Source of the DNA: Bacteroidota bacterium
Lineage (GTDB): Bacteria; Bacteroidota; Bacteroidia; Bacteroidales; UBA1556
Length of the DNA: 7,714 bases
Direction of reading: 5' to 3'
NCBI GenBank assembly: GCA_003648395.1
Contig: QMPB01000190.1
Coordinates: 1-7,714, forward strand
Positions 3,210-7,264 of this stretch are shown here, in pieces (the stretch's first letter is position 1; each line of letters starts with the position of its first letter). A model generated the notes under the pieces. The model made no database searches. It saw nothing but the letters and a program-made list of their open reading frames with translations, and was not told the origin of the DNA. The position numbers and the translations under genes were made by a program.

Positions 3210-3234
3210 AAAAGCCGAGTAATCGGCTTTTTTT
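3210..3234 (+). terminator. intrinsic terminator after gldJ
   Basis: AAAAGCCGA (3210-3218) pairs perfectly with TCGGCTTTT (3223-3231) around the loop GTAA, and the T run continues to 3234. The stem starts 21 bases after the gldJ stop codon. It ends the porP-gldJ unit and separates it from the receptor gene. Confidence 0.9.
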
Positions 3235-3282: not shown

Positions 3283-3290
3283 TATCTTTG
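3283..3290 (+). promoter_or_regulatory. Bacteroidota-type promoter (-7 box TATCTTTG)
   Basis: TATCTTTG matches the Bacteroidota primary-sigma -7 consensus TAnnTTTG at every fixed position and is followed by CAC. The expected -33 zone (about 3258-3264) is TTAACAT, a weak match. It lies after the gldJ terminator and 76 bases before the receptor start codon, predicting transcription from about 3295-3298 for the receptor-lipoprotein pair. Confidence 0.75.
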
Positions 3291-3366: not shown

Positions 3367-5727
3367 ATGAGAAACTTGCTACTTATTCTATTATTCTTTT
3401 CAATTACTAAGATAAATGCCCAAAATTTAGGAGGGATAAATGGTAAGGTTACTGATTCAAAAAGTGGAGCAGCAATCTCAGGAGTTGAGGTTTTACTTTC
3501 TCCAGCAAACAAAGGTACTACCACAAGTAATAAAGGTGTTTTTCATATTATTGGTATAGAACCTGGAGATTACAAATTAAATATTAAGTATTTGGGTTAT
3601 GTTAGTGTTATTAAAGATATTACCATAGTCAAAGGAAAGGTAATAGATATTGATGTTAAAATGGATGTTGATATTCGAGAGCTATTAGCTGTTGAGATTA
3701 GAGATGATAAAATTGAGAACCATGCATATTCAAAGGTTGTATTAAAAGAAGCTCAGATTGAGCAAAAAGCAGTAAGAGATATTGCTGATTATATGAGAGA
3801 AATTCCTAATGTGTCTGCAGTACGAAAAGGAGGAGCAAATCTTGACCCTGTGATTAGAGGTTTTAAGTTTAGCCAACTTAATGTACAAGTTGATAATGGT
3901 TTGATAATGGAGGGTGGTTGTCCTAATAGAATGGATCCAACTACATCACATATTGAAGCGGGTGATATAGAAGCAATAGAAGTAGTAAAAGGGCCTTTTG
4001 CGTTAAGGTATGGGCCTGTAATGGGAGGAGTTGTTAATTTACTTACTACTGAGCCAAAACCATTTGATAAATTGCAAGTTCATGTAAAAGGAAGTATGGG
4101 TTATGAGAGTAATTGGAATGGACAAAGGCAGCATGTTTCTGTTTATGGTGGTGGAAAAAAAGTATTTTTTAGTTTTTCTGGGAATAATGCTCAGTATGGG
4201 AATTATTCTGATGGAGATGGTAATTTAATAGCATCGAGTTTTAATAAGTTTGGGTATAATGGAAAACTTGGTTTTGCCTTGTCAAAAAAACATACTATTA
4301 TAATGTCTTATTCTGAGTTTTATGCTAGAAATGTTGAGTTCCCTGCTTTGCCAATGGATGAGCGTGCGGACAATACAAAACTATATTCAATTGATTATAA
4401 GGGTAGAAAGATTTCTAAAACAATTGAAACTATTGATGTTAAGGCCTATATGACTGATGTTGATCATACAATGGATAACTACTCTCGTGGCTTTAGTGAT
4501 ACTATTGCTACGGTTTCACATATTATTGCTAAAAGGATGGGCTATAGAGCTGAAGTTGGTATTAATACAGGCAATAGGAGCCACTTATTTGTGGGAACTG
4601 ATATGTTTCACATAGAAAAAGACGGTGATAGGGTAAAAACTATGCTTGGACAATTTCCTATGATGGGAAAAGTACCAGTAAAGATTGAAAATTTATGGAA
4701 TAATGCTGTCATCAATAATTATGGTGTATATGGAGAATATACTTTGAATAAGAATTTATGGGAGTACGTTATATCAACAAGGTTAGATTTTAACTCATCA
4801 TACTCCGATTCTATCTCACTGCTAAATATGAAAAAGAAAGATATAATCGGGCTTTCTGCTGATAGTACAAGCTCTTCTTTTATTAATTTTAGTTTTAGTG
4901 CTGGTGTTACTAGAAAATTAAATGAAAATATGTCGTTGGGACTGTCTCTAGGTAGAGGTGTAAGAAGTGCTGATATGAACGAAAGGTTTATTATTAATCT
5001 TCCTGTTGGTTTTGATAATTACGAGTATCTGGGAAATCCATTAATTAAGCCAGAGGCGAATAATGAACTTGATTTGGTATATAAGTATAGAAACCAGAAT
5101 ATTGGAGGATTTGAAGTGTCAGTTTTTTACTCCTTTGTTCAAGATTATATTGGAGGAGTTTATCTGCCTCCTTCAGTGCAAAAGCCTTTAATGCAAAGTG
5201 TTTTAGGAGTTAAGCGATTTGAAAATTTAGGAAATGCAAATTTGTATGGATTTGAGTTTTCTTACGCTACCCCTAGCCAGTATAAGTGGAGAGCATCTCT
5301 GACTGCAGCTTATACAGCCGGAACAATTACCGAAATTGAAATATTAGATTTTGATGTAAATAGTAATGTAACTGGTAAGAGTATTGTTAATAATGATCCA
5401 TTAGGTGAAATTCCTCCTTTAAATATAAATGTAAATTTGAAATATGACTTCTTTGATGGTAAACTTGTTCCTGTTTTAAATTATAGATTTTCTAGTGCGC
5501 AAAATAGAGTTTCTGATGCAATGCAAGAGTTAACCACTCCTTCGTTTTCATTACTAGATCTTAGTTTGATGTATAAGCATAATCAATATTTCAGAGTAGT
5601 TGGTGGTGTAAATAATATATTTGATATATCATATTATGAGCATTTGAATAGAAGAATTCTTGGTACTAATACAAGAATTTATGAGCCAGGGAGAGTGTTT
5701 TATATAAACTTAATATTTAATATTTAA
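3367..5727 (+). CDS. TonB-dependent outer-membrane receptor, OprC-like (probable copper uptake)
   Basis: Outer-membrane active transporter, 786 residues. Residues 1-19 are a signal peptide ending NAQ. About 20-105 form a carboxypeptidase-regulatory-like beta domain (GKVTDSKSGAAISGVEV, GDYKLNIKYLGY), common in Bacteroidota receptors. The plug is about 120-230, with DYMREIPNVS, DPVIRGFKFSQLNVQVDN and VVKGPFALRYGPVMGGVVN. The rest is a 22-strand-type barrel ending in VFYINLIFNI, a terminal strand closed by an aromatic-rich pattern. The plug carries GGCPNRMDPTTSHI, with Cys185 and Met189 as CxxxM; the barrel part carries DHTMD, with His367 and Met369 as HxM. Pseudomonas OprC binds copper with just this set (Cys143, Met147, His323, Met325) at nearly equal spacing. 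A Met/His-rich stretch (M413, H415, M426, M432, M433) may add ligands. It is too short for SusC and has no SusD beside it. Own promoter; lipoprotein 24 bases downstream. The receptor call is certain; the copper substrate is inferred from motifs. Confidence 0.85.
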   Translation: MRNLLLILLFFSITKINAQNLGGINGKVTDSKSGAAISGVEVLLSPANKGTTTSNKGVFHIIGIEPGDYKLNIKYLGYVSVIKDITIVKGKVIDIDVKMDVDIRELLAVEIRDDKIENHAYSKVVLKEAQIEQKAVRDIADYMREIPNVSAVRKGGANLDPVIRGFKFSQLNVQVDNGLIMEGGCPNRMDPTTSHIEAGDIEAIEVVKGPFALRYGPVMGGVVNLLTTEPKPFDKLQVHVKGSMGYESNWNGQRQHVSVYGGGKKVFFSFSGNNAQYGNYSDGDGNLIASSFNKFGYNGKLGFALSKKHTIIMSYSEFYARNVEFPALPMDERADNTKLYSIDYKGRKISKTIETIDVKAYMTDVDHTMDNYSRGFSDTIATVSHIIAKRMGYRAEVGINTGNRSHLFVGTDMFHIEKDGDRVKTMLGQFPMMGKVPVKIENLWNNAVINNYGVYGEYTLNKNLWEYVISTRLDFNSSYSDSISLLNMKKKDIIGLSADSTSSSFINFSFSAGVTRKLNENMSLGLSLGRGVRSADMNERFIINLPVGFDNYEYLGNPLIKPEANNELDLVYKYRNQNIGGFEVSVFYSFVQDYIGGVYLPPSVQKPLMQSVLGVKRFENLGNANLYGFEFSYATPSQYKWRASLTAAYTAGTITEIEILDFDVNSNVTGKSIVNNDPLGEIPPLNINVNLKYDFFDGKLVPVLNYRFSSAQNRVSDAMQELTTPSFSLLDLSLMYKHNQYFRVVGGVNNIFDISYYEHLNRRILGTNTRIYEPGRVFYINLIFNI

Positions 5728-5751: not shown

Positions 5752-6147
5752 ATGAAAAAGATATATTTTATTATAGCAGTATTAGCAATAATAGCAAGTT
5801 CTTGTCAAAAAGAAGCAGATTCAAAAGTTGTTGATTATATGATTACTGGATTAGCTGATCCATATTCCATTGTTTATCTTGATGATAATGGAAATAGTGT
5901 TGCAGAAACAATTACTCCTAATGGATTAAGTGATAAGTGGATAAAATCATTCTCAATGGATGAAGGTTCACCTATTTATTTATATATAAAGTTTACAGAA
6001 GATATTAGCTCTAATATGAGCTTTAACATGGGAGTTTTAATTAATGGTAAGTATTATAAGCAAGCTAAGCACTTTGATAAAGAATCTAGTGCTACAGGGA
6101 CTTTAATATTTGAAGTAAAAAGATCTGGTATCGTGCCATTTGAATAA
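5752..6147 (+). CDS. small lipoprotein, MmpS-like fold, partner of the receptor
   Basis: A 131-residue lipoprotein. Residues 1-17 are a signal with hydrophobic core FIIAVLAIIA and lipobox ASSC, lipidated at Cys18. The following residues, QKEAD, resemble the Lys/acidic surface-export signal described for Capnocytophaga lipoproteins, so the protein may face outward. The mature part looks all-beta: VDYMITGLADPYSIVYLDDNG (about 27-47), WIKSFSMDEGSPIYLYIKF (63-81), FNMGVLINGKYYKQAK (91-106) and TGTLIFEV (115-122). This pattern recalls small MmpS-like domains, which I judge by pattern only. Four methionines (30, 69, 89, 93) and His107 could bind metal, though none forms a known motif. It begins 24 bases after the receptor stop with no terminator between, so the two are almost surely co-transcribed. 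A role in handing substrate to the receptor is inference. Confidence 0.75.
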   Translation: MKKIYFIIAVLAIIASSCQKEADSKVVDYMITGLADPYSIVYLDDNGNSVAETITPNGLSDKWIKSFSMDEGSPIYLYIKFTEDISSNMSFNMGVLINGKYYKQAKHFDKESSATGTLIFEVKRSGIVPFE

Positions 6148-6316: not shown

Positions 6317-7264
6317 ATGGAGAAAAATAGAATTTGCCAAATGCTAGATATACAATATCCTGTAATTATGGCTCCTATGTTTTTAGTTTCAACTGTTGAG
6401 ATGATAGTTGAGGCATTAGAAAGTGGTATAACAGCAGCATTTCCTGCCATGAATTATCGTACAGATAGCGATCTGAGAGCTGCAATTATAGAGATAAAGT
6501 CTAAAACAGATAAAAGTTTTGGAGTTAATTTGATAGTAAATAAATCAAATCCAAAATATCAACAGCAGTTAAGCACATGTGTTGAAATGGGAGTAGGTTT
6601 CTTTATTACTTCTTTAGGAAATCCAAAGGAAGTAATACTAAAATCCAAGGAAAAGGGTATTAAAGTATTTTGTGATGTTACTAATTTGCAATTTGCCAAA
6701 AAAGTTGTAGGTCTTGGTGCAGATGCAATTATTGCAGTAAGCTCAGAAGCTGGTGGACATGCAGGGAATATTCCCACTAAAGAATTAATAACTGAATTAA
6801 AGACTCATATTGATATTCCTATTATTTCTGCAGGAGGTATTGCCACTCATTCTGATTATCTTGAGAAACTAGCTTTAGGAGTTGATGGGGTGAGTGTGGG
6901 AACAATTTTTATTGCTAGTAATGAGTGTAAAGTGTCTGATGACTATAAGAAGGCACTAATAGAATACGGAGCCAAAGATGTCGTACTTACTTCAAATTTA
7001 TCTGGTTCTCCATTAACTGTTATAAATACTCCATATGTACAGAAGATTGGTATTGAAGCTAATTGGCTTAATAGGATGATGTATAAACATAAGAAATTAA
7101 GAAAATATTTGAAAATGATAATTGCCATTAATGGAATGAAGAAGATAGAAAAAGCTGCCTTTGGTGCAAATTATAATACATATTTTGTTGCAGGACCTTC
7201 CATTGAGCATATACATTCTATACGTTCAATAAAGGAGATTATAAAGGATTTGGTTAACGGCTAA
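6317..7264 (+). CDS. nitronate monooxygenase-like FMN enzyme (2-nitropropane dioxygenase family)
   Basis: Cytoplasmic TIM-barrel flavoenzyme, 315 residues, the usual length. Nitronate monooxygenases oxidise alkyl nitronates with oxygen using FMN; the related FabK is an enoyl-ACP reductase. PVIMAPM (15-21) is the N-terminal flavin motif of the nitronate monooxygenase group, FGVNLIV (68-74) is the next strand, and SEAGGHAG (143-150) contains the catalytic-type His148. ISAGGIA (170-176) and GVSVGTIFIAS (191-201) form the FMN-phosphate site, and SGSPLTVINTP (229-239) is the usual C-terminal motif. The APM motif rather than the QGGM of FabK favours nitronate monooxygenase, but many family members have untested substrates. 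The frame is open upstream to a TTG at 6275, but the ATG at 6317 places the conserved MLDIQYPVIMAPM correctly, and the upstream residues are AT-rich noise. It is a single-gene unit between a terminator and a convergent gene. Confidence 0.88.
   Translation: MEKNRICQMLDIQYPVIMAPMFLVSTVEMIVEALESGITAAFPAMNYRTDSDLRAAIIEIKSKTDKSFGVNLIVNKSNPKYQQQLSTCVEMGVGFFITSLGNPKEVILKSKEKGIKVFCDVTNLQFAKKVVGLGADAIIAVSSEAGGHAGNIPTKELITELKTHIDIPIISAGGIATHSDYLEKLALGVDGVSVGTIFIASNECKVSDDYKKALIEYGAKDVVLTSNLSGSPLTVINTPYVQKIGIEANWLNRMMYKHKKLRKYLKMIIAINGMKKIEKAAFGANYNTYFVAGPSIEHIHSIRSIKEIIKDLVNG

Follow-up and report, generated by a model that had tools for sequence, protein, structure and literature searches.

A TonB-dependent receptor with a predicted OprC-type copper site in Bacteroidales, and its relatives across Bacteroidota

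The window analysed here is the whole 7,714-nucleotide stretch of contig QMPB01000190.1 (GenBank assembly GCA_003648395.1), from a Bacteroidota bacterium of the Bacteroidales. At positions 3367..5727 of its + strand lies a gene for a TonB-dependent outer-membrane receptor of 786 aa, which its open reading frame (ORF), its Pfam and NCBIfam matches, searches of the PDB and a phylogenetic tree assign to the type of OprC, the copper importer of Pseudomonas aeruginosa. Both halves of the signature of this type, CxxxM in the plug and HxM in a barrel strand, were found aligned with the ligands of OprC. The gene very probably encodes a TonB-dependent copper importer working like OprC, a statement meant to cover ionic and chelated copper alike. 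Copper import had been proposed in an earlier note on this DNA; the receptor type was borne out, and copper import itself, which we infer, was supported.

The predicted copper-site residues, their conservation and the receptor family

The predicted copper ligands are Cys185 (codon TGT, 3919..3921) and Met189 (ATG, 3931..3933), which align with OprC Cys143 and Met147, together with His367 (CAT, 4465..4467) and Met369 (ATG, 4471..4473), which align with His323 and Met325, all on the + strand. The earlier note had named the same four residues, and reading the codons at 3919, 3931, 4465 and 4471 confirmed each of them, as well as the Cys-to-His separation it had given, 182 residues here versus 180 in OprC (143 to 323). 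The alignment with OprC that it had called for also placed them on the four OprC ligands. In a phmmer search against the PDB, CPNRMD paired with CPNRMD of OprC and DHTMDN with DHIMDN (6fok, E 2.2e-40), and in a predicted structure model His367 and Met369 sat within barrel strand 353-370. Residue mapping added Met330 (4354..4356, + strand), the equivalent of Met286 in the methionine track of OprC and a residue absent from the earlier note. Judged from the OprC alignment, all four side chains would come together in a single site where plug and barrel adjoin.

We searched ~5.8 billion proteins for homologues and scored 7996 candidates, which gave 645 matches at E 1e-20 or better. The best 120 of these 645 homologues, hereafter the near set, were aligned with 31 distant Bacteroidota receptors and OprC. 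Both GGCPNRMDP and HxMDN were present in 120/120 of the near set. Cys185 and Met189 were identical in 120/120 near and 31/31 distant rows, and Met330, His367 and Met369 in 120/120 near and 30/31 distant rows, the single gapped row fitting one cut-short ORF (L080; L and G numbers denote loci and genomes). His759 was conserved likewise (120/120 near; 30/31 distant, one gap). The four ligands thus stayed identical throughout the near set, down to 43% identity, in agreement with the earlier view that coincidence was unlikely and with the motif conservation it called for among homologues.

A DNA pattern for CP[N/S]RMDP was run over 395 genomes sampled across Bacteroidota. It matched 34 of them, and the reversed pattern matched none. 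For two of the 34 matches (L093, L094), no receptor ORF was recognised. In 31 of the 32 remaining receptors, that of the Bacteroidales relative G001 among them, HxM followed 165-231 residues downstream in the same ORF, with a spacing of 180-183 in 27 of these 31. The 32nd receptor, L080, is split and has its HxM (DHLMDN) in the following ORF. The first half of the site is thus predictive of the second throughout the phylum. A pattern demanding a Gly codon before the Cys found just the centre genome among the 395; it understates the distribution, because most distant receptors have Ala instead of Gly there. A protein search at E 1e-100, which gave 6/395 genomes, was likewise too strict. Within the G001 family, 10 of 11 genomes had one receptor each. 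We also noticed a second type of Bacteroidota TonB receptor in which CTDKM replaces CPNRM (L136, and also L130, L131 and L133); in L136, CTDKMDP stands at residue 116 and EHYMDD 183 residues on, which puts HxM at an OprC-like distance.

TIGR01778 (TonB-dependent copper receptor, an equivalog model) was the best NCBIfam match of the window receptor, with 257.1 bits over residues 133-784, and the relatives L035 and L038 scored 234.7 and 278.6 bits against the same model. The heme and siderophore receptor families tested scored lower and below their own cut-offs, the runner-up being the heme/transferrin family TIGR01786 (163.2 bits; cut-off 323.75), followed by the heme family TIGR01785 (151.5; 316.85) and by TIGR01783 (104.3; 223.5). 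The six best distinct sequences in the phmmer search were all OprC, and the next was PhuR, with an E value of 1.2e-9. Among the solved structures searched, OprC was the top match of the predicted fold by two programs, and heme receptors, besides ZnuD, came after it.

A maximum-likelihood tree was built from 48 receptors, with nine other Bacteroidota TonB receptors, from G001 and G111, as outgroup; it was drawn up without proteobacterial heme and siderophore receptors, and several of its branches are long. All CxxxM-HxM receptors split from the nine others with a branch support of 99/96, on a side that includes OprC, a Raoultella TIGR01778 protein and a Thioclava OprC-like protein. This placement with OprC, apart from the other Bacteroidota receptors, answered the question of clade raised in the earlier note in favour of its assignment. 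The window receptor clustered with Bacteroidales relatives, and the next branch outside this clade was L035 (99/98). The exact position of OprC within the CxxxM-HxM side is unsure because of the long branches. Receptors such as the CTDKM type may extend the OprC-type site beyond TIGR01778.

Regarding domain architecture, an N-terminal carboxypeptidase-regulatory-like beta domain covers residues 24-106 (3436..3684, + strand; PF13715 and PF13620), the plug residues 119-217 (3721..4017, + strand; PF07715) and the TonB receptor barrel residues 278-751 (Pfam). The OprC alignment begins past the first of these domains, from residue 136 in the sequence search and from residue 118 in the structural comparison, which fits the earlier statement that OprC lacks it. 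The domain is not universal, since 7 of 43 receptors examined begin too near the motif to contain it, including L029 from the window's own clade. In the L026 receptor (8942-11311, genome G399), one in-frame TGA breaks the frame, owing to a sequencing error or to decay.

Copper import weighed against other explanations

The plug supplies Cys185 and Met189, and a barrel strand supplies His367 and Met369, all at the ligand positions of OprC. We propose that these four side chains converge where plug and barrel face each other and there capture a soft metal ion, with Cu(I) or Cu(II) the most likely. Driven by TonB energy, the plug would then move and let the ion go into the periplasm, where heme-copper oxidases may use the copper, as may N2O reductase or other cuproenzymes in relatives. 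The N-terminal beta domain would act as an accessory coupling module.

The gene neighbourhoods of relatives offered some copper context. An MbnP gene (PF20243) and a di-haem CCP/MauG-family gene lay near the receptor in 2 of 12 clade neighbourhoods, adjoining it directly in L026 and separated from it in L029 by the gene of the lipoprotein described below; the best NCBIfam match of the L026 MauG-family protein was MbnH TIGR04039, below cut-off. MbnP was present somewhere in 8 of the 12 genomes examined (7 above cut-off) and COX1-family proteins in all 12 (11 above cut-off), both counts being taken on genomes without completeness figures; the receptor itself was found in 11 of these 12. Farther away, L035 has a cluster reading nosZ (Sec-dependent, TIGR04246, 946 bits)-nosD-ABC permease-DUF6448-receptor-nosL, which gives the Bacteroidota sample a natural example of NosA-like genetics. 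At L036 and L039, SCO-like and Cu-nitrite-reductase-like proteins lie close by, with an azurin-like protein as well at L036; the two NCBIfam matches at these loci were below cut-off, and SCO, which had no NCBIfam match, was assigned by eye. By phmmer, NosZ-like proteins were nearby at L090 and L103, and NirK- and SCO-like proteins at L085.

Several observations weigh against copper import. By the model's own rule the window receptor is not a TIGR01778 member, since its 257.1 bits stay below the cut-off of 472.45; in the family search that the earlier note had called for, the best match was thus in its favour and the score, 257 versus 472, fell short. Identity to OprC is ~25%, and ZnuD stands just ~2 Z units behind OprC in the structure list. 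Nowhere in the near set does a methionine stand opposite OprC Met339, Met341 or Met343. Among the window neighbours (porP/sprF, gldJ, lipoprotein, FabK-like), Pfam and NCBIfam pointed to no copper gene. MbnP adjoins the receptor in just 2/12 neighbourhoods and was undetected in 4/12 genomes, some of the COX1-family matches may be nitric-oxide reductases, enzymes that do not require copper, and ten copper-context queries run with phmmer gave copper labels at just part of the distant loci.

The methionines call for a closer look. The OprC track includes Met286, 339, 341 and 343, and also Met348 (PMC8610252), and of Met286, 339, 341 and 343 the window receptor has the equivalent of Met286, Met330, alone. 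We did not treat the track as defining, because only part of its residues is conserved in NosA according to the OprC paper (PMC8610252). Residue identities in the near-set and distant alignment thus indicate that the principal site was kept and most of the methionine track was not. This branch suggests that the essentials of OprC are the four ligands and Met286, with Met339, Met341 and Met343 dispensable. The missing methionines also bear on how copper arrives, since Met339/341/343 belong to the track proposed for Cu(I) in OprC (PMC8610252). Their lack would suit import of copper carried by a chelator, be it a chalkophore, a peptide or a copper protein that is scavenged, with CxxxM-HxM taking the ion from its carrier, and so would the MbnP and MauG-family genes adjoining in 2/12 neighbourhoods, whose namesakes belong to methanobactin operons (PMC3621798). 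However, MbnP-MbnH pairs occur far beyond methanobactin producers (PMC3621798), inspection of the 12 clade neighbourhoods, by eye for most ORFs, revealed no gene for chelator biosynthesis, and a Cys, two Met and a His look like ligands of an ion rather than a chelate pocket. We consider delivery by a chelator unlikely; it would be a variant of copper import, not its opposite.

Two other explanations dispense with copper as the substrate. The receptor might handle heme, a siderophore or zinc and retain the four residues from an OprC-like ancestor, which would agree with the secondary matches to TIGR01786 and TIGR01785 (163 and 151 bits), with ZnuD and heme receptors coming next after OprC in the structure list and with the source label 'iron complex outermembrane receptor'. 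Yet the heme and zinc matches are weaker than OprC by sequence, by profile and by structure, copper genes adjoin some relatives, and such strict conservation of the ligands, in the best 120 of 645 homologues and, for the pair, in distant Bacteroidota, is not expected of a relic. A retained relic is thus very improbable. A shade more improbable still is that the four residues bind a regulatory or structural metal while the receptor takes up something else: sequence leaves room for a plug metal with a signalling role, but OprC, a copper importer, has its principal copper site there (PMC8610252), and the window residues align with it. Copper import by an OprC-like route is therefore the explanation we retain.

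The operon of the window and leader ORFs upstream of distant receptors

Upstream of the receptor, the window carries genes of the PorP/SprF family and for GldJ (gliding/type IX secretion). A GCCGA...TCGGC hairpin followed by a T run (3214..3234, + strand), read from the sequence, is the probable gldJ terminator. Between it and the receptor, TATCTTTG (3283..3290, + strand) matches TAnnTTTG, the Bacteroidota -7 promoter element, and the same word is similarly placed in six relatives (L019, L020, L021, L023, L024 and L025). The terminator hairpin and this word before the receptor suggest that the receptor and the gene that follows it probably form their own two-gene operon.

The second gene (5752..6147, + strand) begins 24 bases after the receptor and encodes a clade-conserved partner, a 131-aa lipoprotein with a lipobox Cys18 (5803-5805, + strand) as predicted lipid anchor. 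It matched no Pfam or NCBIfam family, and its fold is an MmpS-like beta-sandwich. Besides the lipobox Cys it has no invariant Met, His or Cys, and for this reason a role as copper chaperone was rejected; it would rather be an accessory of the same operon than a metal-binding protein. At L023 the partner looks truncated: ~300 bases past the receptor, whose frame is intact, its first half is followed by a stop. Farther downstream in the window (6317-7264) is a gene for a nitronate-monooxygenase/FabK-like flavoprotein (PF03060; TIGR03151 below cut-off), a homologue of which is also downstream in L023 and L024. The window gave no Rfam family at gathering score and no match in a plasmid megablast. 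A shared 5' leader RNA was considered for the window's clade and rejected, as the upstream alignment gave just the gldJ terminator and the TAnnTTTG word.

Outside the window, a small ORF with Cys residues and a C-terminal PP lies directly upstream of 28 of the 31 distant Bacteroidota receptors. Our rule for such a leader was the same strand, 100-200 aa, at least three Cys, PP near the C terminus and a gap under 700. It was satisfied at L036-L039, L078-L092, L095-L100, L102, L104 and L105, and missed at L035, L101 and L103; of 130 other ORFs of the same size in those neighbourhoods, 3 fitted it. The figure of 28/31 is descriptive and no blind test, because the rule was written after viewing those loci. 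In the window's clade the rule was satisfied at none of the 10 loci with the upstream ORF in view, and a CruR-like leader looked for in the window was not found, the gene upstream there being gldJ.

The CxGxC form occurs in 18 of the 28 leaders; in all 18, CxGxC lies 62-68 residues from PP, and PP 2-7 residues from the end. Cys58, Cys68, Gly70, Cys72, Pro137 and Pro138 were invariant in 17 aligned CxGxC leaders, and the 10 leaders without CxGxC have other Cys patterns. The leaders look exported, and their C-terminal PP is mostly HPP. Six leaders tested against Pfam at E up to 1 gave no match, DUF2946 included, and we therefore call them only look-alikes of CruR/DUF2946. CruR of Bordetella, which belongs to DUF2946, senses copper via CXXC while still a nascent chain and stalls at RAPP, and OprC-type receptors and MbnPH are among the genes of operons headed by its homologues (PMC9426467). 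On a Raoultella plasmid, likewise, DUF2946 directly precedes a TonB-dependent copper receptor. The Bacteroidota leaders may function as CruR-like copper sensors; their presence in relatives would make nascent-peptide copper sensing testable in this phylum.

The leader profile is not specific to OprC-type receptors, since it matches 158/395 Bacteroidota genomes, far above the number of OprC-type receptor carriers. We inspected 14 of its matches (L122-L135). What follows the leader is an OprC-type receptor at L122, an MbnP-like gene (judged from sequence) at five loci, a lipoprotein and then a CTDKM-type receptor at three (L130, L131, L133), and a TonB receptor with no CxxxM in the part viewed at two; at one locus no gene on the same strand was in view. 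Pfam confirmed two MbnP genes, both from other loci. Occurrence before MbnP-like genes and CTDKMDP receptors indicated that the leader family belongs to copper genes more widely. At L123 and L124, a leader-like ORF stands before a Met-rich, outer-membrane-like protein, another possible copper gene.

As for earlier work, a recent RAPP/RGPP survey reports, in the part available, no upstream ORFs (uORFs) of copper-related genes in Bacteroidota (PMC12992588), and no description of the leader motif family was found in the available parts of the literature on CruR, DUF2946 and copper uORFs (PMC12914433, PMC9426467, PMC12992588, PMC9973294). The family may partly have been included in earlier work, because Bacteroidota is one of the main phyla given for CutF-like proteins in a figure legend (PMC9973294).

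A joint reading, which we put forward tentatively and lean against rather than towards, would combine a phylum-specific nascent-chain sensor with a leaderless two-part importer of Bacteroidales, made of receptor and MmpS-fold lipoprotein. Each leader would have a hydrophobic segment at its N terminus, a Cys motif that reads C-x9-C-x-G-x-C in the largest group, and a PP arrest; such leaders would head OprC-type receptors, MbnP-like genes and CTDKM-type receptors, while the two-part importer would work without most of the OprC methionine track.

Relation to known systems

The earlier note had warned against a plain iron/siderophore label, a fair warning, as the source labels of several homologues read 'iron complex outermembrane receptor protein'. 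With several receptors of the branch labelled in this way and most homologues unnamed, copper acquisition by uncultured Bacteroidales can readily escape notice. Together with Met330, the CxxxM-HxM signature provides a simple test for candidate copper receptors, since its first half found 32 receptors in 395 genomes and the second half followed.

The idea of a copper receptor was correct and yet not new for the phylum: in 2024 a CxxxM-HxM TonB receptor of Bizionia argentinensis (Bacteroidota) was named a likely copper uptake protein (PMC11213822). The main text of the OprC paper describes conservation in many Proteobacteria, without the word 'Bacteroid', and calls NosA of P. stutzeri an OprC orthologue (PMC8610252); a 2012 clustering of marine TonB receptors includes an OprC/NosA copper cluster (PMC3400609). 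In the parts of the OprC, Bizionia and marine TonB papers at hand, we found neither the Bacteroidales branch nor its partner lipoprotein, the missing track residues or a phylum-wide test of the site.

Compared with OprC (PDB 6fok, 6z8q), to which it is ~25% identical, the window receptor adds the N-terminal carboxypeptidase-regulatory-like domain and a downstream lipoprotein gene, and does without Met339/341/343. TIGR01778 remains its best NCBIfam match, yet with 257 bits under the 472 cut-off, and the zinc receptor ZnuD of Neisseria meningitidis shares 17% identity with it in the structural alignment. Bizionia G2EC70, which we could compare by its description only, is a Bacteroidota TonB receptor with CxxxM-HxM, tabled near CcoG and NosL genes and printed as 21.8% identical to OprC (PMC11213822). 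The lipoprotein shares 17% identity with mycobacterial MmpS5 (PDB 8em5), a likeness of fold that does not imply function; it is predicted to be lipid-anchored at Cys18, and no MmpL-like gene adjoins it in the window. Finally, the leaders upstream of the distant Bacteroidota receptors have a layout like that of Bordetella CruR (PMC9426467).

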